The position numbers were made by a program, and so were the translations under genes. Shown one piece after another: positions 1,800 through 32,602 of a stretch of 48,021 nt of DNA. The DNA comes from a virus. How positions within the stretch are numbered: position 1 is the first letter of the stretch; each line of letters opens with the position of its first letter. A model generated the notes under the pieces. That model saw only the letters and a program-made list of their open reading frames with translations. It had not been told where the DNA came from and ran no database searches. The DNA lies in IMG/VR virus record IMGVR_UViG_3300005288_000092, positions 1 to 48,021 of that record, one strand, 5' to 3'.

Positions 1800-3178
1800 T
1801 ATTTTCTTTCGGTGGCTGCGAGTGCGGCGCGGTCAATTGGTTTCCGCTGCGCCGAGTTCTTATCCCATTCGGCGCGCCATGCGACAACCAAATCAATAAC
1901 ATCCTGCCGGACAAGGTAATCAATATTCCGTTTTAGTGACCCTTCCTGGGTTGGCAAATGAAGCAGCGCAGCGGCAAAATTCATGCTTATTTTATCGAGG
2001 CCGCGAATCGTGGCGAGGCAGCCGGCGTATCGCTCATCCAGCGCCGCCCCTTCCTGTTGAATGGCTGGCGCAGCGGCGCGTTTTTCGAACTCGCGCAGAA
2101 TTTCGCCAAGTATTGAGAACGCTGAGCGATAATAGAACTCATCCTGGTCGAACGGTTCATAGTCGGCCAGCACCGAGAGCCGACCCAGACGCTTGCCGAT
2201 GAAGGAGCGCTCCTGATCATCGTGCTGGTAGAGTTTCGGCGCTGCGGCTGGCTGCTGGCTGGCGGCGAGGATGGCGCGAGCGAAGCGCAGCATCGAACTC
2301 GTCATCTGTTTATCATCGCTGTAGTTGAATGTGTCGCGATAGACATCAGCAATTTCGCCTTCGCTCAGCGCCGCTTGCGCATGCTGCTGTGGGGCTGGAA
2401 GCGCGACGATGAACAGGCGCTTGCCGTCCTTGGAGCCGTCGCCGAAGATGGGCAGATCGATGGTGTTACCGTCAACGGTCCGACCTTCGATCAGCAGTTC
2501 ATCAGGGCGGATGTAGCGCTGCTGTGGAGCGGCAGCTTGAATGCGCGCAAGCTGGTCACGGGCCGCATCGCGCTCGCCGGTTATGTCCTCGACGAGCTTC
2601 GCTCCATCGCTGAAGCCCCTGCGGTATTCGACTGCTGCCGATTGCGAGGTGTGGCCGTCGATGTGGGAAATGAACTCCGCTCGGGCTATTTTGTAGCCGT
2701 CCTCGTTATCTGGTGTATCGCCAGCCACATCCAAGGTGCTCAGGCGCATGCGGAAATGAGGCGTATCCACCGTCACCGCTGGCATTCCCGATGCCGATGC
2801 AGCATCAATCTTGTGCATCGCGGTTTGCAGGTAGTTTGCGCAGTCGAGCGATTCCAGCAACGCGTGCTCCAGCCAATCGCGCAGCGGTGCTTTGGAATCG
2901 GCGAGGGTCGTTCCGTACTTCCCGATGCCCAAGGCGCTGCGCGACCGCAGCAGTTCCACATTAGCCTCAACCACTGGGTCGGCCGCTGGCATTCCCGTGT
3001 TCGCGGGAATCATACTAGCCACATACTGCTCACGCGCCGCTGCCGCTGCTTCAGCGCGCACCAGCAGATCGCGGACTTCTGTTAGTTCCGCTTCCTGCTT
3101 GCGCACCAATTGCACAAGTTCTAATACATCATCGTCACCGGCAACGCGTGCGCTATTCTCAATCTGGTCCAAGTTCAT
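1799..3178 (-). CDS. hypothetical mosaic protein (Ead/Ea22-like style)
   Basis: A 459-residue protein. Residues about 15-50 are a predicted coiled coil. Residues about 70-125 contain a helical block (LGIGKYGTTLADS...DWLEHALLESLDCANYL) like the short alpha-helical module found in phage accessory proteins and resembling MazG-like all-helical nucleotide hydrolases; catalytic acidic residues are not clear. Ala/Gln-rich linkers separate further segments, giving the patchwork look of Ead/Ea22-type proteins. It overlaps both neighbours. Function not known. Confidence 0.6.
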   Translation of the reverse strand: MNLDQIENSARVAGDDDVLELVQLVRKQEAELTEVRDLLVRAEAAAAAREQYVASMIPANTGMPAADPVVEANVELLRSRSALGIGKYGTTLADSKAPLRDWLEHALLESLDCANYLQTAMHKIDAASASGMPAVTVDTPHFRMRLSTLDVAGDTPDNEDGYKIARAEFISHIDGHTSQSAAVEYRRGFSDGAKLVEDITGERDAARDQLARIQAAAPQQRYIRPDELLIEGRTVDGNTIDLPIFGDGSKDGKRLFIVALPAPQQHAQAALSEGEIADVYRDTFNYSDDKQMTSSMLRFARAILAASQQPAAAPKLYQHDDQERSFIGKRLGRLSVLADYEPFDQDEFYYRSAFSILGEILREFEKRAAAPAIQQEGAALDERYAGCLATIRGLDKISMNFAAALLHLPTQEGSLKRNIDYLVRQDVIDLVVAWRAEWDKNSAQRKPIDRAALAATERK

Positions 3179-4427: not shown

Positions 4428-5186
4428 TTAGGCGCGCAGAATGGCTTCGTACTGCTTAACGAGGCCTTCAAAGTCAGCCAGTTGAGCCGCCATCTTGTCT
4501 ATGAAATCATCATCGCGCAGGATTCGTTTCACGTACAAGTCTTTACCTACATTTTTCAGCATAGGCGCATACATAATGAAGTCGCAATATTTCCGCGCAG
4601 TAAGCCATAGGCCTCCTTGAATCTGGCAGAGATATTCGCTAACGTCGCCAGTACGCCACATATCCATGATCTTGATGCTGTCAATCGGGGATTTTATTTC
4701 TATTAAGCCATCATTGTCTACAAGGCCATCAGAGCTGTATGCAAAAACGTCATCAGCATCAATACACAAGCCAGCCTCGGTAACGAAAGCTTGCGTCCTG
4801 GCTTCGTAGTGCATACGCGCCAAGGCTTCCATCTCGTGGCCGCGCTCCAGAGCCCAAGCGTTCGCTGGCTCTTGGAATGGGCCTCCATTGATACGCTCAA
4901 ATGCCAAATCAGCAGCGTAACGTTTTGCGGTATCAGACGGCTCAACGGTAGATTCGTCACGTAGGGCGCGCTTGATGATATCGGCACTAGGAGCGCCTTT
5001 GTAACCAGCGCCAGCCGCCGCATCTTTTTCTGATAAGCCAGCCTTTACCAGCTCGACATACTTTTGTTGCTGCTCATTTAGACCGCCAATCGTGCTGATT
5101 GCATCGCTGAAACATGACGCGGTAATTAATCCGGCCCTTAATGCAAGCCACTCGGAAGTTCCTTGTTGGCATTCAATAAATCTCAC
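4428..5186 (-). CDS. YqaJ/lambda-exonuclease-type recombination nuclease
   Basis: A 252-residue PD-(D/E)XK nuclease of the YqaJ (lambda Red-alpha-like) family, which resects one strand of double-stranded DNA ends to make substrate for an annealing protein. The N-terminal QGTSEWLALRAGLITAS motif (residues 8-24), GHEMEAL (about 117-122), D153, the EIK motif at 163-165 and the Q-I-Q motif near 188-190 match the family's active site. Residues about 37-100 look like an extra helical insert containing a helix-turn-helix-like segment (LVKAGLSEKDAAAGAGY). It overlaps recT by four bases (ATGA), the usual arrangement for the pair. Confidence 0.9.
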   Translation of the reverse strand: MRFIECQQGTSEWLALRAGLITASCFSDAISTIGGLNEQQQKYVELVKAGLSEKDAAAGAGYKGAPSADIIKRALRDESTVEPSDTAKRYAADLAFERINGGPFQEPANAWALERGHEMEALARMHYEARTQAFVTEAGLCIDADDVFAYSSDGLVDNDGLIEIKSPIDSIKIMDMWRTGDVSEYLCQIQGGLWLTARKYCDFIMYAPMLKNVGKDLYVKRILRDDDFIDKMAAQLADFEGLVKQYEAILRA

Positions 5187-6166
5187 GGCTGGCCTCCTGT
5201 GCGCTGAGCATCAAGTTCTTCGTCGCTGAGCACGCGCTCGGCTTCCTGCTCGGCCAGAACTTCCGGCATGGCCTGATCAATCACTTCTGGCTTTTTTGCA
5301 TCTTCAGCCATCCGCGCACGATGGCCGGCGATGGCATCCTTGAGCTTCTTGTAAGCCGCAGGATTATTCACCAACAGCGCGTTGTGCTCACGCCAGTAGG
5401 TCAGCGCGGCGGCGTCACTAGTGGTCTTCAGCGCTTCGGCAATAAGCGGGTCTACGTCCATGGTATCCGGTGCGTTGTTGATGTCGCGCATGCCCTCACC
5501 GCCCTCCGTGTTAAGGTGATGGATTGCATTTTCCAGGCGGTCAGTCTTAGGCCAGTATTTATAGGCTTGCTTGACGCAAGTTTTCTTGATCATCTCGGCG
5601 GGGTCGGTCTTCCACGGCCCTGAGTTGCGCTTCCACGCTTCCGAGCGGTTGCGGATATCGTAGACCTCGCTTATTTCCATGGTGTGTGTCAGGTAGTCAC
5701 CATCCGCAGTCTTGACGACAACGTAGACGCCGATTATCTCGCCTCGATCCTTTGCAAACGGATTAAACGTGTGCACAGGCGCTTGGTCGAAGCGTCCACG
5801 TGAGAAGCCATCGCCAGCGCGTACAATCTCAGCCTGCGCCCATTTGATCGATCCTGTAGCCATTGCCAAGTCCATTAGGCCCATGTAGCTAATATCAAGG
5901 CAGATTGCGCCGCCACGTGGTACTAGATAAGCTTGCTTCTTGGCTGGGTTGAGACTGATGCCAATAGCGGCAATATTCTTGACCGCATTCACGACAGATT
6001 GACGATTGTTAGCCGCGATCTTCAGTGCGAAATCATTGTTCCCCAGCACTTGAATCGCAAAGCCAGCCTCTTGCTCAAACTTTATTGAGCGGTCAGCTAG
6101 CAATGTCTGGAATTCATCCCGAGTAGCGTTGATGTCTCCGGTAATTAGAGTTAATGCGTTGCTCAT
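5183..6166 (-). CDS. recT: RecT-family single-strand annealing protein
   Basis: A 327-residue RecT homologue, which coats single-stranded DNA and anneals complementary strands in phage recombination. The core is clear: NIAAIGISLNPAKKQAYLVPR (residues about 68-88), an ISYMGLMDLA block, GDxF..G, and the AEMIKKTCVKQAYKYWP helix at about 188-204. The C-terminal 100 residues are charged and probably flexible. The start has a good AAGGA ribosome binding site. It is followed directly by the exonuclease gene, its expected partner. Confidence 0.95.
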   Translation of the reverse strand: MSNALTLITGDINATRDEFQTLLADRSIKFEQEAGFAIQVLGNNDFALKIAANNRQSVVNAVKNIAAIGISLNPAKKQAYLVPRGGAICLDISYMGLMDLAMATGSIKWAQAEIVRAGDGFSRGRFDQAPVHTFNPFAKDRGEIIGVYVVVKTADGDYLTHTMEISEVYDIRNRSEAWKRNSGPWKTDPAEMIKKTCVKQAYKYWPKTDRLENAIHHLNTEGGEGMRDINNAPDTMDVDPLIAEALKTTSDAAALTYWREHNALLVNNPAAYKKLKDAIAGHRARMAEDAKKPEVIDQAMPEVLAEQEAERVLSDEELDAQRTGGQP

Positions 6167-6175
6167 AGTTTTTCC

Positions 6176-6835
6176 TTAGAATTGTTTCAAAAATTCTTTT
6201 GCTTGCTCTAATGGGTCATACGTCTCGTATTCAGATTCTGTTGGACGCCAATCAGTTTCGTCCCAGTTACATTTGCCTTGATTACAGGCCCCGCAAAGAA
6301 TTTGTAGATTTTTTATATCTAAAGCCAAATTAGGAAAGTATTTTCGTGGCTTGATGTGGTCAACATTCATGATGGCCCCATTGGAAGGGTTGTCACCGCA
6401 GCACATGCACACTGCCCCGTATAGTTTTAATGCCTGCATACGCAATGTGCGCCAAGCGTAACTAGTAAGGAAGTCAGGCCCATTCGGATCGACGTAGCGC
6501 TGCTTTGGTGGCTTTGATGGCGGTGGAACGTAAGACTTGATGGCTGGATATGTAACTGGGCCGCTTTTCTTTTCAGACAGGGATAGAGCAACCAACTGAT
6601 ACGCGTTCGGGTTCCGGCCCTTCTTTTCGCGGCGCTTTATCTTGGCCGTCATGGCTTTACTGATTTTAGACAGCATGTACTCAGTAACAAGGCGCGGCCC
6701 ATGTTTCGCCATCCACCCTGATTTCAATGGGTATGGAATCCCAAAGGCATGCGCCTCTGATCGCGTGATTGCGAAAGGTCGCTCTACGTTGTACTTTTCC
6801 TGTAAATATTCCAAAATATTCATTAAAAAACCCAT
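6176..6835 (-). CDS. HNH endonuclease
   Basis: The C-terminal half holds a classic HNH zinc motif: a CMCCG knuckle, then MNVDHIKP with the catalytic His, then LDIKNLQILC..CN. The N-terminal half is basic and begins MGFLMNILEYLQEKYNVERPF. No start has a convincing ribosome binding site. I chose 6835; 6823 (MNILEYL) lies just after the T-run of the upstream hairpin and is equally possible. Longer starts up to 6925 would run through that hairpin and look unlikely. It could be a homing endonuclease or a packaging/recombination nuclease. It is followed nine bases later by recT. Confidence 0.8.
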   Translation of the reverse strand: MGFLMNILEYLQEKYNVERPFAITRSEAHAFGIPYPLKSGWMAKHGPRLVTEYMLSKISKAMTAKIKRREKKGRNPNAYQLVALSLSEKKSGPVTYPAIKSYVPPPSKPPKQRYVDPNGPDFLTSYAWRTLRMQALKLYGAVCMCCGDNPSNGAIMNVDHIKPRKYFPNLALDIKNLQILCGACNQGKCNWDETDWRPTESEYETYDPLEQAKEFLKQF

Positions 6836-6912
6836 GTGGTCGAAGCAGAGGCGGTGATCGTAAAACCTGACGGATTGCAGGCATTGCGAAACTCTGCTTC
6901 GACCACATGGGT
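6825..6912 (-). terminator. very long hairpin with T-run, leftward
   Basis: Positions 6830-6850 and 6892-6912 form a perfect 21-base-pair inverted repeat around a 41-base loop. Read leftward the stem is followed at once by six T (6830-6825, the first of them shared with the stem base). This has the form of an intrinsic terminator but with an unusually long stem and loop. It lies directly before the HNH gene's likely start codons, so it could end transcripts arriving from 7493 and/or occlude translation of the nuclease. Confidence 0.65.
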
Positions 6913-7493
6913 CTTCCGTTGGCACTGAAAGCCATCACCACAACAGCTATTCAGAATCCACATATTGCCATGAAATATTATTTCCAGCAAGGGATATTTA
7001 TGAGTCTTTCACCGGTTGTCTTTTTAAGCAAGATTGCTATATGCAGAAAACTGGCGGCACGTTTTTTATCCTGAGTCTGCTCAGAAACCGCCTCTGCATC
7101 CCGGCTTTAACCAAGTCCGGCTTGGGCATATGCGCTGTGCATGCTAGCGTGTGGACCCGTCCTCCTGTTTGCGCTCCCCGGCAGACGCCTGCTTTACAGG
7201 CCGATTCGGCTCATTGCGCATCCCGCTACTCCAAAGGGCAGTATAGCGGCCCCTTACCACACATAGCCGCCCTACCTTTGGTAGGCGTCATCAGGCGTAG
7301 TTCCTGAATCATACGATTTAACGGGGTAGCGCCCAAATCGTTGCATCTTCTCGCCGTTCAGGCGGAGGGCTACATCAGCGGCTATGTGTAGTGACTGGTT
7401 ACGCCAGTCAGGCGATGCACGGTGTTACTCCCTTGACCGTGCAGCTTTGCCAGATTCCCCCAGCAATTTATTAGCTCTGGCGGGCTAAAAACT
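6913..7493 (-). ncRNA. candidate large structured RNA, gene-free block
   Basis: About 580 bases with no credible coding frame but many perfect short inverted repeats: a 12-base-pair pair ACACATAGCCGC (7260-7271, plus strand) with GCGGCTATGTGT (7378-7389) enclosing at least three smaller hairpins (cores CCTACC/GGTAGG, AGGCG..CGCC-type, and a 7-bp stem with AAATCGT), then a TGACTGG/CCAGTCA hairpin, a TGCACGGT/ACCGTGCA hairpin, CTGAG/CTCAG, CCAAG/CTTGG and GCCTG/CAGGC hairpins. Loops are purine-rich when read on the minus strand, matching the direction of neighbouring genes and of the 6825-6912 terminator. Structure is inferred by eye. It might belong to a known large phage RNA class such as GOLLD or ROOL; I cannot confirm that. 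Confidence 0.5.
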
Positions 7494-7673
7494 TTACTTA
7501 AAATGCTTGTCCAGCACATCGATTACCATGTAGCAGACGAAAGGAGCGATGACTAGGAACAAGAGCATGATAGCAACTTGGTCGGAGAATTGCTTCTCTT
7601 TTTCGTGGCGCTGCTTCATATCGAGCCACGTTTCGTCTCTTTTAGGCCACTTGTCGAACGGATCGTTGAGCAT
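7494..7673 (-). CDS. small single-pass membrane protein (59 aa)
   Basis: A 59-residue protein starting MLNDPFDKWPKRDETWLDMK, with a charged N-terminal half and one transmembrane helix at residues about 33-54 (VAIMLLFLVIAPFVCYMVI). An AAAAGGGG ribosome binding site lies six bases before the ATG. It follows the 83-residue gene by 12 bases in the leftward operon and is the last gene before the RNA-like block. Function unknown. Confidence 0.65.
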   Translation of the reverse strand: MLNDPFDKWPKRDETWLDMKQRHEKEKQFSDQVAIMLLFLVIAPFVCYMVIDVLDKHFK

Positions 7674-7685
7674 TTCATTCCCCTT

Positions 7686-7937
7686 TTAAGGTGCAACTTT
7701 GAAATCTTCGTCTGTGAATTCATGAACCCAGCGTGAGGCGGATTCAATTCGTGAGGTGCGAATATCATTGGCTGGAGCGCGTTCTTCCGTCAACGGCTGA
7801 ACCAGCAGAAAAGGCCCAGCCGCATCAGTAAAAAGAACATTCACATCGCGCCTGATTACTTCCCATCTATCGCCGTGCTGCTTAACGATCTGCTTGGCGC
7901 GCTTTGATAGAGGGATCAAAGTAACTATTCTCATCAA
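7686..7937 (-). CDS. hypothetical protein (83 aa)
   Basis: A small protein starting MMRIVTLIPLSKRAKQIVKQ, with a beta-alpha look and a basic first third. It overlaps the upstream gene by four bases (ATGA). A hypothetical early protein of the short leftward operon driven from the divergent promoter; no family recognised. Confidence 0.6.
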   Translation of the reverse strand: MMRIVTLIPLSKRAKQIVKQHGDRWEVIRRDVNVLFTDAAGPFLLVQPLTEERAPANDIRTSRIESASRWVHEFTDEDFKVAP

Positions 7938-13502: not shown

Positions 13503-13612
13503 GTCGATGTAGCAGCATTGGCGAATCCGAAGCCCCATAGGTCTCGGTACTTTCTGGGTTAAATCCCACTTGCTGCTACAAGGAAAGTGCCGATACTTCT
13601 GGGGCTTTTTTT
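13503..13612 (+). ncRNA. candidate small RNA or attenuated leader
   Basis: Roughly 110 bases between a strong promoter and a terminator. It contains a 4-bp hairpin TGGG/CCCA (13555-13568), a CTTG/CAAG hairpin (13569-13582), and two competing partners for its 5' end: TGTAGCAGCA (13508-13517) can pair with TGCTGCTACA (13571-13580), while TGTCGATGTAGCA (13502-13514) is the exact complement of 13619-13631 beyond the terminator. That is the logic of a transcription attenuator, or of an RNA with an independent product. Direct evidence is sequence only. Confidence 0.55.
13530..13612 (+). terminator. intrinsic terminator with branched stem
   Basis: AAGCCCCA (13530-13537) pairs with TGGGGCTT (13600-13607), then a 10-base-pair stem (13545-13554 with 13583-13592, one G-T pair) encloses two small hairpins. 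Seven T follow from 13606 to 13612. Confidence 0.8.
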
Positions 13613-20540: not shown

Positions 20541-21533
20541 ATGCGTAAATTGGTTACGGTTCGCCGCATTGATTCAATCAGCCCTATCGATGGAGCGGAT
20601 GCAATTGAATGCGCCCAGGTAGGAGGCTGGAAGGTAGTTGTAAAGAAAGGCGAGTTTTCAGAAGGCCAGCTTGCCATGTACTTCGAAATAGACTCTTGGA
20701 TACCTGAAAACGTAGCGCCGTTCCTGTGCAAGGACAAGCGCGAATTCAATGGCGTTGCAGGTGCTCGTCTGCGTACAGTCCGGCTGCGCGGGCAAGTTAG
20801 TCAAGGTTTGCTATTGCCTCTTGCTGAGGTCTTTGCGAATTGCTTAGAAGATGACGATATCACAGAAGCTGTTGGCGTGCAGAAGTGGGAAGCTCCAGTG
20901 TCAGCACAGCTTAGCGGGCAAGTTCGCGGAAACTTCCCTTCATTCATCAAGAAGACGGATCAGGAACGTATTCAGAACCTCAAACGCGATTTGGAAGTAT
21001 GGAAAAATAAGACCGTTTGGGAAGTCACAGAGAAGTTGGATGGAAGTAGCATGACCGCATATCTTCGCGATGAAGACTTTGGCGTATGCAGCCGAAATCT
21101 CGACCTCAAGTCTGATGAGAAGAACTCGTTTTGGACTATGGCTATCAAACTGAATCTTGAGGCAAAGATGCGCGATCTTGGAAGTAACATCGCTATCCAA
21201 GGTGAGTTGATCGGTCCGTCAATCCAAGGCAACAAATACAATCTGACCGAGCATCAGTTCCGCGTGTTTGACGTGTTCGATATCGATGCCTACTCATACT
21301 ATGACGCTCAGCGCCGCGATGAAGTTTGCGATGTACTAGGTTTGTTGCATTGCCCAGTTCTTGACGCCGAGCACACAATCAACCAGGATATCGACGGTAT
21401 TCTATTGATGTCCGAAGGATTCAGTGTCCTAAATGAGAAAGCGCAGCGTGAAGGATTGGTATTTAAATCAATCAGCGATCCAAACATCAGTTTTAAGGCA
21501 ATCAGTAACAAATTCCTGTTAGCCGAGAAGTAA
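20541..21533 (+). CDS. RNA ligase of the Rnl5 (DraRnl-like) family
   Basis: A 330-residue ATP-dependent RNA ligase. The nucleotidyltransferase motif I is E-K-L-D-G-S-S with Lys165 as the expected adenylated residue. Motif IV (EGLVFKS near residues 311-317) and motif V (SFKAISNKFL near 321-330) follow in order. Unlike most ligases it has about 155 residues before motif I, an OB-fold-like region (LVTVRRIDSISPIDGADAIE, EIDSWIPENVAPFL, RLRTVRLRGQVSQGLLLP), the pattern of Deinococcus DraRnl. It seals RNA nicks and might repair host-cleaved RNA; a good intrinsic terminator follows. Confidence 0.85.
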   Translation: MRKLVTVRRIDSISPIDGADAIECAQVGGWKVVVKKGEFSEGQLAMYFEIDSWIPENVAPFLCKDKREFNGVAGARLRTVRLRGQVSQGLLLPLAEVFANCLEDDDITEAVGVQKWEAPVSAQLSGQVRGNFPSFIKKTDQERIQNLKRDLEVWKNKTVWEVTEKLDGSSMTAYLRDEDFGVCSRNLDLKSDEKNSFWTMAIKLNLEAKMRDLGSNIAIQGELIGPSIQGNKYNLTEHQFRVFDVFDIDAYSYYDAQRRDEVCDVLGLLHCPVLDAEHTINQDIDGILLMSEGFSVLNEKAQREGLVFKSISDPNISFKAISNKFLLAEK

Positions 21534-30255: not shown

Positions 30256-30307
30256 TTTATTGACGATATTTTCCTGATACCATCTTGCCATGCGGCTATA
30301 AGGCAGC

Positions 30308-32602
30308 ATGAATTGCAACAAACACACGGGATCAGGCAACTTGACCATGGAAATCGTCGTAATCGAAGAAGTGATGACCGAGGAACAGCGAGTAGATCGC
30401 TTAGAGTCCTTTGGGGAGTCGCTGACTCGTTACCGCAAGGAAGACGTTGATGCACGTAAGGCGTCTGACTGCGAGATTGAATGGCAAGAGGATGAGGAAT
30501 ACTATGACGGCGTAGACGACCTGAATCGTGGCGAGGTCATGCGCAAGTCAGAGACGCTGAACGGGCGCGCAACCACCATTTCCGAAGTCCCATCGAACCG
30601 CTGCACGGTGTTCGTGAACGTTACTCAGCCGTATGTTGATATGGCTGTGGCGCGCACTACCGAAATGCTGCTGCCTAATGACGATCTGCCTTTTGGTATC
30701 GAGCCTACGCCGATGCCAGATATGATCGACGCAAAGAACGACACCACTACGCTTATTACCGCAGCAGACGGCTCACAAGCGCCAGCTTCTGAGGTCGCTA
30801 CTGCCATGCTTGACGAGGCTAAGAAAGCCGCTGAGGGCGCGCAGAAGCAGATTTGGGACTGGTTGTCTGAGGCAGGCTGGCACGCTGAAGGCCGCAAGCT
30901 GCTGGAGGATGCTGGTAAGGTCGGCGTGGCTATCCTCAAAGGCCCGATGCCTGTGCGCGTCAAGTCGAAGCGCCGCAAGGTGCAGCAGTTGGCAGACGGC
31001 ACGCAGCAGACGACCATCGCGATTGAAGAAAAGACTCAGCCAGCATCGAAGCGCATCAGCTATTGGGACTTCTTCCCTGCGAAAGACTGCGGCGAGGACA
31101 TTCATAGCGGTTCGCGTGTTTGGGAGCGTGACCGCATCACCGCGAAACAACTGCGCGAGATGAAAAGCGAGTTGGACCCTGATGGCAATCCGCGCTACAT
31201 CAATTCGCAGATCGACAAGGTTCTGAAGGAAGGCCCATCTAAGAAGTATTTGGATGATCGCGGCCATGAGAAAGCGGATACCGACAAGTTTGAGATTTGG
31301 TACTACACCGGCACCGCAGATCATCAGGATTTGGCTGCTGCTGGTCTTGAAGTGGACGAGGAAACGTCTTACCCAGTCATCGTTACGATGGTCAATGACC
31401 ACGTTATCAAGGCCGCTCTGAGCCATCTGGATTCGGGCGAGTTCCCTTATGACGTGATGGTGTGGCAGCGTCGTCCTGGCAAGTGGTACGGCAAGGGCGT
31501 AGCGCGTCAGGTGCGCACTGCTCAGCGCATGCTCAACGCCGCGACTCGCAACATGTTCGACAACGCAGGCTTGAGCGCTGGCCCGATTCTGGTTATCCGC
31601 GAAGGCGTGCTTGAGCCAGCAGATGGCACTTGGGAACTGACGCCGCGCAAGGTCTTTACGGTCAAGGAAGACGAAGACGCAGCCAAGGTCGCCGATGCAA
31701 TCCATTCGATCATCGTCCCGAGCAATCAGGTCGAGCTGATGAACATCATTGCCAAGGTCGAGGAGTGGGCTGAGAAGATCACTTCCATGCCACTGATTAT
31801 GCAAGGTCAGCAAGGCGCGGCAACTGAGACCGTTGGCGGCATGACGATGTTGCAGAACAATGCGAGTTCGGTGCTGCGCCGCATTGCCAAGATTTTTGAT
31901 GACAAGATTACTGTTCCGCACGTTGGACGCTATTACGAATGGTTGCTGCTGTGGGGCGAAGACGAGAAGGTTAAAGGCGACTTCCGCGTGATTGCGCATG
32001 GCTCGACGGCGCTTTACGAGCGTGACGCACAGAACCAAGCAATCATTCAAATGGCTCCGCTGGTGCAAAACCCAGCATTCGGCATCGATCCTAAGAAGTG
32101 GATTGTTGAGGCATTCAAGGCTCAGAAGTTGGACCCTAAGCGCTTCCAGTTCACCGAAGAAGAAATGAAGCAGATGCAAGAGGCGGCGCAGAAGAATCCG
32201 CCTGAAGACCCGCAAGTTACTGTCGCAAAAGCGCGTGGTGAAGCTGATATTGCGAAGGTTAAGGTTCAATCTGAAGCAGATGCTGCCAAATTTAAGGCTG
32301 AACAAGAAAGTATTTCGCGAGATAACACATTCAAGGCTGAACAAGCGCGCCTTGACCGTGAATTGGAGCTAGAGCTTAAGCAGATGGATTACCAAATGCG
32401 CCTGATGGAATACGCAGAGAAGAAGAATATGCAGTTGGCCGACGTGAAGAAAGAATTGGCTAAGAGCGTGATGGACATCGATGCGCAGAAGGAAGTCTTC
32501 TATGCCGGATTGGGTCAAGACGCGAACGCAGCTCCGCAGATCGCACAGCCTGAGTTTGAGCCTGCTGGACGTGCTCCTGAAGGTCAGGCGTTTCCGCGCT
32601 GA
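30308..32602 (+). CDS. portal protein
   Basis: A 764-residue protein of the long podovirus portal type, which forms the dodecameric ring at the packaging vertex. After an acidic N-terminus come the portal-like parts: SKRISYWDFFPAKDCGEDIH, KFEIWYYTG, GEFPYDVMVWQRRPGKWYGK, VARQVRTAQRMLNAATRNM and a final EKITSMPLIMQGQQGA-type turn. Residues about 640-730 are a long Glu/Lys/Ala coiled coil, the barrel-like C-terminus seen in N4-like/Bcep22-like portals. An AAGG site four bases before ATG 30308 supports that start; 30350 is possible. Confidence 0.85.
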   Translation: MNCNKHTGSGNLTMEIVVIEEVMTEEQRVDRLESFGESLTRYRKEDVDARKASDCEIEWQEDEEYYDGVDDLNRGEVMRKSETLNGRATTISEVPSNRCTVFVNVTQPYVDMAVARTTEMLLPNDDLPFGIEPTPMPDMIDAKNDTTTLITAADGSQAPASEVATAMLDEAKKAAEGAQKQIWDWLSEAGWHAEGRKLLEDAGKVGVAILKGPMPVRVKSKRRKVQQLADGTQQTTIAIEEKTQPASKRISYWDFFPAKDCGEDIHSGSRVWERDRITAKQLREMKSELDPDGNPRYINSQIDKVLKEGPSKKYLDDRGHEKADTDKFEIWYYTGTADHQDLAAAGLEVDEETSYPVIVTMVNDHVIKAALSHLDSGEFPYDVMVWQRRPGKWYGKGVARQVRTAQRMLNAATRNMFDNAGLSAGPILVIREGVLEPADGTWELTPRKVFTVKEDEDAAKVADAIHSIIVPSNQVELMNIIAKVEEWAEKITSMPLIMQGQQGAATETVGGMTMLQNNASSVLRRIAKIFDDKITVPHVGRYYEWLLLWGEDEKVKGDFRVIAHGSTALYERDAQNQAIIQMAPLVQNPAFGIDPKKWIVEAFKAQKLDPKRFQFTEEEMKQMQEAAQKNPPEDPQVTVAKARGEADIAKVKVQSEADAAKFKAEQESISRDNTFKAEQARLDRELELELKQMDYQMRLMEYAEKKNMQLADVKKELAKSVMDIDAQKEVFYAGLGQDANAAPQIAQPEFEPAGRAPEGQAFPR

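Follow-up and report, generated by a model that had tools for sequence, protein, structure and literature searches.

A gene-free block in a phage early operon comprises a large structured RNA with a tandem-pseudoknot core and a separate terminator-like element

We analyzed a 48,021-nucleotide stretch of phage DNA (the window) and found that its gene-free block at 6825–7493 is two separate elements, both on the minus strand: element A (about 7481–7000) and element B (6941–6825). By covariation of its predicted helices, element A is a large structured phage RNA, and its relatives occur in about 50 other phages, where the sequence is divergent and the base pairing is kept. Element A is a new family that by score is not GOLLD, ROOL, STAXI or c4; the literature searched (subscription papers and most preprints lay outside it) held no description of it, and an unindexed description is possible. 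We tentatively favor the reading, at somewhat under an even chance, that element A is a stable RNA released from the early transcript that would act in trans during infection.

The block lies within a leftward minus-strand early operon that, from the open reading frames and Pfam matches, spans ∼8272 to below 4428 and runs in minus-strand order from small genes through a 59-aa gene to the gene-free block, an HNH gene, recT and a YqaJ exonuclease gene (Table 1). The window terminase has 50% identity with the terminases of APSE phages. The first-pass annotation had described the block as gene-free, and this was borne out: 6958–7493 contains short chance open reading frames only, no reading frame is conserved, and the relatives of the block differ by large insertions and deletions, with L145 lacking the P1 domain. 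The minus strand of the block folds with a minimum free energy of −257.7 kcal/mol compared with −220.4 ± 6.8 for shuffled sequences (z = −5.49, with 0 of 20 shuffles as good), and the plus strand gives a z of −4.8. The 59-aa gene is also the upstream neighbor in L163 and L190 (tblastn, 56% identity) and, by reading, in L145. A phage RNA ligase gene elsewhere in the window (20541–21533, plus strand; phrog_968, 1.9e-93) was considered as a partner of element A and dropped, since it is present in the window only (1 of 50 records, the 49 others having none).

Table 1. Features of the gene-free block and its neighboring genes in window coordinates
Feature	Position	Strand	Description
59-aa gene	7494–7673	−	Directly upstream of the gene-free block
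Helix P0	7481–7476 with 7454–7449	−	GCCAGA/TCTGGC; GCTAGA/TCTAGC in L163, a compensatory change
Hairpin P0b	7442–7436 with 7423–7417	−	7 bp; conserved loop CAAGGGNNTAA
Hairpin H0	7392–7410	−	TGACTGG-CGTAA-CCAGTCA, directly before P1
Stem P1 and variable enclosed domain	7392–7377 with 7271–7256 (domain 7256–7392)	−	Automated search; 15–16 bp including G–U
Possible alternative helix P2	7262–7257 (GTGTGG, inside P1) with 7154–7149 (CCACAC)	−	6 bp in the window
Element A core (dPK)	7149–7101 (49 nt)	−	Two tandem H-type pseudoknots; most conserved part of element A
PK1	7149–7146/7136–7133 and 7144–7140/7130–7126	−	First pseudoknot of dPK
PK2	7125–7121/7115–7111 and 7120–7117/7104–7101	−	Second pseudoknot of dPK
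Helix P4	7099–7094 with 7046–7041	−	Inner hairpin CTGAG/CTCAG; ATGCAG:CTGCAT in the window, ATGCAA:TTGCAT in L163
Hairpin P5	7038–7035 with 7030–7027	−	Small; covarying in four relatives
3′ hairpin remnant	7000–7026	−	Intact in L163, L017 and L145 (GGGGTGAAAATCCCC type); from alignment and reading
Element B	6825–6941	−	Pseudoknotted terminator-like element; precedes HNH gene
Element B arm a	6941–6934 with 6858–6851	−	Pairing read from the sequence and L001
Element B arm b	6919–6915 with 6874–6870	−	Pairing read from the sequence and L001
Element B arm c	6911–6892 with 6850–6831, then T6	−	Perfect 20 bp, 41-nt loop
HNH endonuclease gene	6176–6823	−	Pfam HNH 8e-08; directly after element B; outside element A
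recT	5183–6166	−	Pfam RecT 3.7e-33; recombination operon downstream
YqaJ exonuclease	4428–5186	−	Recombination operon

Covariation in homologues, which the first-pass annotation had named beforehand as a check, is strong in the core, P1 and the flanking helices of element A. Each locus carries one strong dPK core, in which PK1 and PK2 are different structures. Across 24 dPK sequences, collected with a pattern that left key positions free, the four helices are 91.7% paired and contain 28 doubly changed cells compared with 8.8 in shuffles (0 of 500), and sliding the partners by 1–3 columns abolishes the covariation signal. The window dPK scores 63.8 bits in a covariance model of the core, of which the window is itself a member; a weak dPK-like match in L072 (20.6 bits) was left out of the counts. 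In a less biased scan the pattern fixed most of PK1 and left PK2 unconstrained, with PK2 called present at ≥4 of 5 and ≥3 of 4 pairs. Among the 74 distinct sites found, 50 also had PK2, of which a few may be chance (e.g. L182), compared with 2.6% of shuffles. The inner PK2 helix is built from about twelve different fully complementary quartets among these matches, including CCGG:CCGG, CGAG:CTCG, GGGG:CCCC, GCCC:GGGC, CGAC:GTCG and TCGA:TCGA. Since the residues of PK1 were mostly fixed by the scan pattern, its covariation rests on the free positions, where one pair is C–G, A–U or G–C and another is G–C, C–G or U–A.

The helices flanking the core were compared in a four-way alignment of the window with L163, L017 and L145, which gave 93.2% pairing across P0, P0b, P4, P5 and the core; the covariation score is 0.325 compared with 0.174 in shuffles (0 of 500). 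With only four sequences, and with helices picked from the window, this covariation is supporting evidence. The changes include P0b, where GCACGGT:ACCGTGC becomes ACTAGGA:TCCTAGT in L163 and L145, with 4 of 7 pairs altered on both sides, and P5, which reads AGCA:TGCT, AGCG:CGCT, GGCG:CGCC and AGCT:AGCT in four relatives.

The stem enclosing several hairpins that had been noted as 12 bp proved to be real, and is P1. A search upstream of the core for a long helix with a hairpin immediately before it, the 3′ strand of the helix ending in a TGGT-like sequence, found H0 and P1 in 18 of 58 members compared with 2 of 232 sequences shuffled in two-base blocks. The hairpins at the H0 place in these 18 have differing stems and a loop that often contains TAA. 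In many P1 members the bottom of the stem, ACCACA/TGTGGT followed by GAATGCGCAGG, is conserved, while pairs 7–14 from the bottom take 2–4 pair types each and thus covary; L113 and perhaps L111 are atypical for P1, and L113 was excluded from the pair counts. Many members have no recognizable P1, and element A may for that reason be a modular set, not one machine. Similar units were also seen apart from this arrangement: L094 carries an H0–P1-like element without dPK (1820–1920, minus strand), the same phage record carrying its dPK element at another place (L165), and L037 (4700–5480) has a run of tandem structured units spanning ∼800 nt before recT that by reading include a second H0–P1 and a PK1-like sequence.

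Besides the P1 5′ strand, the 3′ strand of P1 is complementary to the segment before the core in 8 of 76 members compared with 2 of 380 shuffles, at a cut-off of 7 bp, below which the 6-bp P2 of the window falls; of these eight, L116 and L133 probably arose by chance. From these complementarities, a strand-exchange switch between P1 and P2 is possible in element A.

Transfer RNAs are concentrated near the element. ARAGORN found three in the 56 kb around dPK, all in sense, compared with one in the 591 kb elsewhere in the same loci, and five compared with three under its -ps setting; the loose -ps80 setting, with 107 matches near and 706 far, was uninformative. In L142 a tRNA sits atop P1 (Rfam tRNA, 35.8 bits by cmscan), with another tRNA-like unit after the core, and L105 has tRNA-like units in both the P1 domain and the domain after it. 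Most members, the window included, have no recognizable tRNA, and neither ARAGORN nor Rfam found a tRNA or tmRNA in the window. The embedded tRNAs also bear on whether the conserved structure is that of an RNA or of single-stranded DNA serving replication or recombination. The neighboring genes do act on single-stranded DNA, and the same idea has been raised for STAXI (PMC2864571). However, the embedded tRNAs are in sense, and the sense strand has G–U pairs, both at one core pair in four of the aligned sequences and at 10 of 257 P1 pairs, the P1 search having permitted G–U and not A–C, so we regard a DNA structure as very unlikely.

The terminator-like end of the block, noted by the first-pass annotation, is likewise a real hairpin (arm c in Table 1). 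The annotation had also treated the block as a single transcript ending near 6825, which for element A is probably mistaken, since the 3′ end there belongs to the separate, HNH-linked element B. Three relatives of the HNH gene (L001–L003) match the window over the final ∼134 nt ahead of the HNH start and nowhere further upstream. Element B has 89% identity to L002 and L003 and 86% to L001; for the leader and HNH coding sequence the identity is ∼72%. That the whole block is one RNA ending at the terminator is consistent with A and B being adjacent on the same strand, and with a similar A/B-like pair in L017. In contrast, element B accompanies the HNH gene without element A in L001–L003, and element A stands without element B and HNH in its close relatives L163 and L145, making one RNA highly improbable.

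Because L001–L003 carry B and HNH without A, and relatives of element A lack this HNH gene, element B together with HNH appears from these comparisons to have inserted at the 3′ edge of element A; the final hairpin of A survives as a remnant in the window and is whole in relatives. These relatives, in which element A stands before recT or other genes, are L017, L027 and the closer L163/L190 and L145/L157. In L163 the 59-aa neighbor gene is followed by the element A RNA and then an ERF-like gene, and in L145 by a shorter RNA and then recT. The HNH gene was thus rejected as a partner of element A: another gene directly follows A in L163 and L145, L017 has no match to the window HNH, and L001–L003 have no A. 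An HNH-associated RNA (HEARO type or IscB guide RNA) found no support either, since element A is not conserved together with the HNH gene, and a group I intron and HEARO, considered by eye, had no Rfam match.

From its predicted pairings, element B is likely a pseudoknotted terminator or a terminator/antiterminator pair. We collected long-loop terminator-like hairpins regardless of other pairing, with the window copy removed by the duplicate filter, and 14 of 36 have a segment beside the 3′ arm that is complementary over ≥7 nt to sequence before the 5′ arm, compared with 5.6% of shuffles. It is because the arms differ between phages, for example GTAGAAGTC:GACTTCTAC and GTTGCTGTC:GACAGCAAC, that we consider this assignment likely. 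The sigma-70-like boxes before element B are weak by eye (3–4 of 6 positions per box), and the promoter scan lists none there, so they were given no weight.

Further units of this kind were observed. A second one in the window (13508–13612, plus strand) has a 24-bp long-loop terminator-like hairpin with two mismatches and a T7 run; TGCTGCTACA in its loop is the pairing partner of arm TGTAGCAGCA, and GCTACATCGACA, immediately past the T run, is complementary to sequence at that arm. Others occur in L005, L006, L007, L010, L017, L021 and L068, several then followed by a common CGTACTCC. Together they suggest an attenuator or antisense class of phages that is uncatalogued, similar to c4 in its logic and with no Rfam match. 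Both c4, a phage regulatory RNA, and element B are phage-linked, and some B-like units by reading repeat an arm partner downstream. The c4 model (RF01695) had no match at E ≤ 2 in the element-B-like loci or at E ≤ 10 in the window, and there was no other credible Rfam match.

The first-pass annotation had proposed a structured phage RNA that was either GOLLD, ROOL or a new class. The strong covariation upholds the structured and possibly new part of this proposal, while identity with GOLLD or ROOL found no support in cmscan against Rfam, for the window as for the other members scanned. In Rfam 15 the window has no match at the gathering threshold and none credible at E ≤ 10 for 6100–7700, and at the core of the other members scanned Rfam finds nothing but tRNAs. 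In general design, element A nevertheless resembles both. GOLLD is a large phage or prophage RNA whose 3′ region is conserved and whose 5′ region is less so, the variable part sometimes containing tRNAs (PMC12286853); element A likewise has its conserved dPK at the 3′ side, a variable 5′ part and tRNA enrichment in the family, although the window has no tRNA. Element A differs from GOLLD in that there is no covariance-model match in the window or the members scanned, its core is a tandem H-type pseudoknot, and many members sit in early recombination operons. ROOL, a large phage RNA with several pseudoknots that is often near tRNA genes (PMC12286853), also has no covariance-model match in the window or the members scanned. 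In STAXI (RF01728), pseudoknots in tandem lie close to genes whose products handle DNA, SSB among them (PMC2864571), and element A likewise is near SSB or other DNA-handling genes. Yet STAXI is one pseudoknot in two or three copies, found in Enterobacteriales, whereas element A has two different pseudoknots and a large 5′ domain, and RF01728 matched neither the window (E ≤ 10) nor seven other loci (E ≤ 1). Two catalogued RNAs occur elsewhere in member phages. In L111 (8823–8897) and L098 (1281–1328), Burkholderiales-2 (RF02917) is found on the strand opposite to dPK and ∼600 nt upstream of it; since the leader in the Bordetella phage vB_BaM-IFTN2 (L204, about 5990–6240) is similar to this region read in sense, RF02917 may have the wrong orientation in Rfam. 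RT-15 RNA is found in L096, L106, L111 and L175, in surroundings that look like the variable/template region of a diversity-generating retroelement.

The members of the element A family come from viral contigs. Isolate phages and plasmids gave no credible blastn match to the block or core, the viral contigs scanned with the 59-aa neighbor protein gave only the known L163/L190 contigs, and the exact-type H0 pattern had no further copies. A model search of 398 Pseudomonadota genomes gave 14 matches of ≤31 bits, compared with 43–78 bits for nearly all covarying members, and these were treated as noise; of those inspected, L119 lies inside a glycine-dehydrogenase-like gene and L120 inside an oxidoreductase-like gene. 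Because no true-member score arose in these genomes and the core pattern had no match in 369 genomes of the class, element A is rare in the sampled bacterial genomes. Two member contigs have short DNA in common with Bordetella phages, which weakly suggests hosts in or near Burkholderiales. A partial relative is found in the cultured Bordetella avium phage vB_BaM-IFTN2 (OM293951.1, about 30300–30830, minus strand), with a 20-bp P1, H0 and GAATGCGCAGG, no dPK match, and by eye a tRNA-like sequence downstream; it precedes RecE and RecT genes.

The genes after the core offer the main case for a function in cis. A Shine–Dalgarno–ATG lies within 160 nt after the core in 42 of 60 members, usually at 20–70 nt, compared with 24% at random positions, and the element usually ends 20–120 nt ahead of it; this would suit a cis-acting 5′ leader as well. 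Among 63 downstream proteins the most frequent Pfam families are RecT (8), SSB (6) and YqaJ (6), with RdgC (2) and ERF (1) also found, and PHROGs adds RecE-type nucleases. In phage T4, gp32 binds a pseudoknot in its leader and autoregulates gene 32. Since RecT and SSB are the commonest recognized neighbors and the mRNA target of the T4 ssDNA-binding protein is established (PMC535899), the main rival to a trans-acting RNA is a cis translational operator, in which phage SSB or RecT would bind the tandem pseudoknot in the 5′ leader and autoregulate the operon. The precedent is a phage Ssb that represses its own mRNA; as in element A, an RNA structure lies ahead of the gene for a phage ssDNA-binding protein (PMC535899). 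Unlike the T4 leader, however, element A has two pseudoknots and the P1 domain, and its next gene often encodes no ssDNA-binding protein: a methyltransferase, KTSC, a nucleotide kinase and many proteins of unknown kind are also found there. An operator would moreover make several hundred nucleotides of extra covarying structure and the embedded tRNAs superfluous, and we judge it rather unlikely, if the weightiest of the rivals.

In the cases read, element A is in sense with the operon, as would be expected of a cis antiterminator that acts as nascent RNA on RNA polymerase and lets it read through early-operon terminators. The HK022 put RNAs work in this way, with terminator read-through, and are unlike element A in size and pseudoknots. 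A terminator-like element does lie between element A and recT in the window and L017, and the H0–P1-like element of L094 by reading stands directly before a terminator-like hairpin and terminase genes. Intrinsic terminators are nevertheless not enriched downstream of the core (3 of 60 within 800 nt, with a background of 0.104 per kb), and we consider antitermination improbable.

We favor a trans-acting RNA because its structure persists while the genes after it change, and because some members have tRNAs embedded in them. From its position and orientation, element A would probably be transcribed with the leftward early operon, as one of its intercistronic parts, and would fold with 5′ hairpins and the long stem P1 carrying an exchangeable, sometimes tRNA-like domain, closed on the 3′ side by the dPK core. 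It would then be excised from the early transcript to give a stable RNA, in the general manner of GOLLD and ROOL; as element A has no terminator of its own, release of a discrete RNA would need such processing. The dPK core could cap the 3′ end and so shield it from exonucleases, or could provide a platform for binding. Because tRNAs lie inside or beside element A in some members, our best guess for its role is translation or tRNA biology, or counter-defence. A more specific and distinctly less probable version is a scaffold RNA whose strand-exchange stem would present exchangeable tRNA or tRNA-like modules, the dPK cap stabilizing it as a machine or multimer that works in trans, such as a tRNA decoy directed at the anti-phage nucleases of the host.

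Large ornate phage RNAs such as GOLLD and ROOL form a small group, and the element A family is an independent system for asking what they do. It offers decisive covariation, a short searchable core, variants with and without tRNAs or the large 5′ domain, and, in a cultured phage of Bordetella, a partial relative. Phage early recombination operons harbor several uncatalogued structured RNAs.
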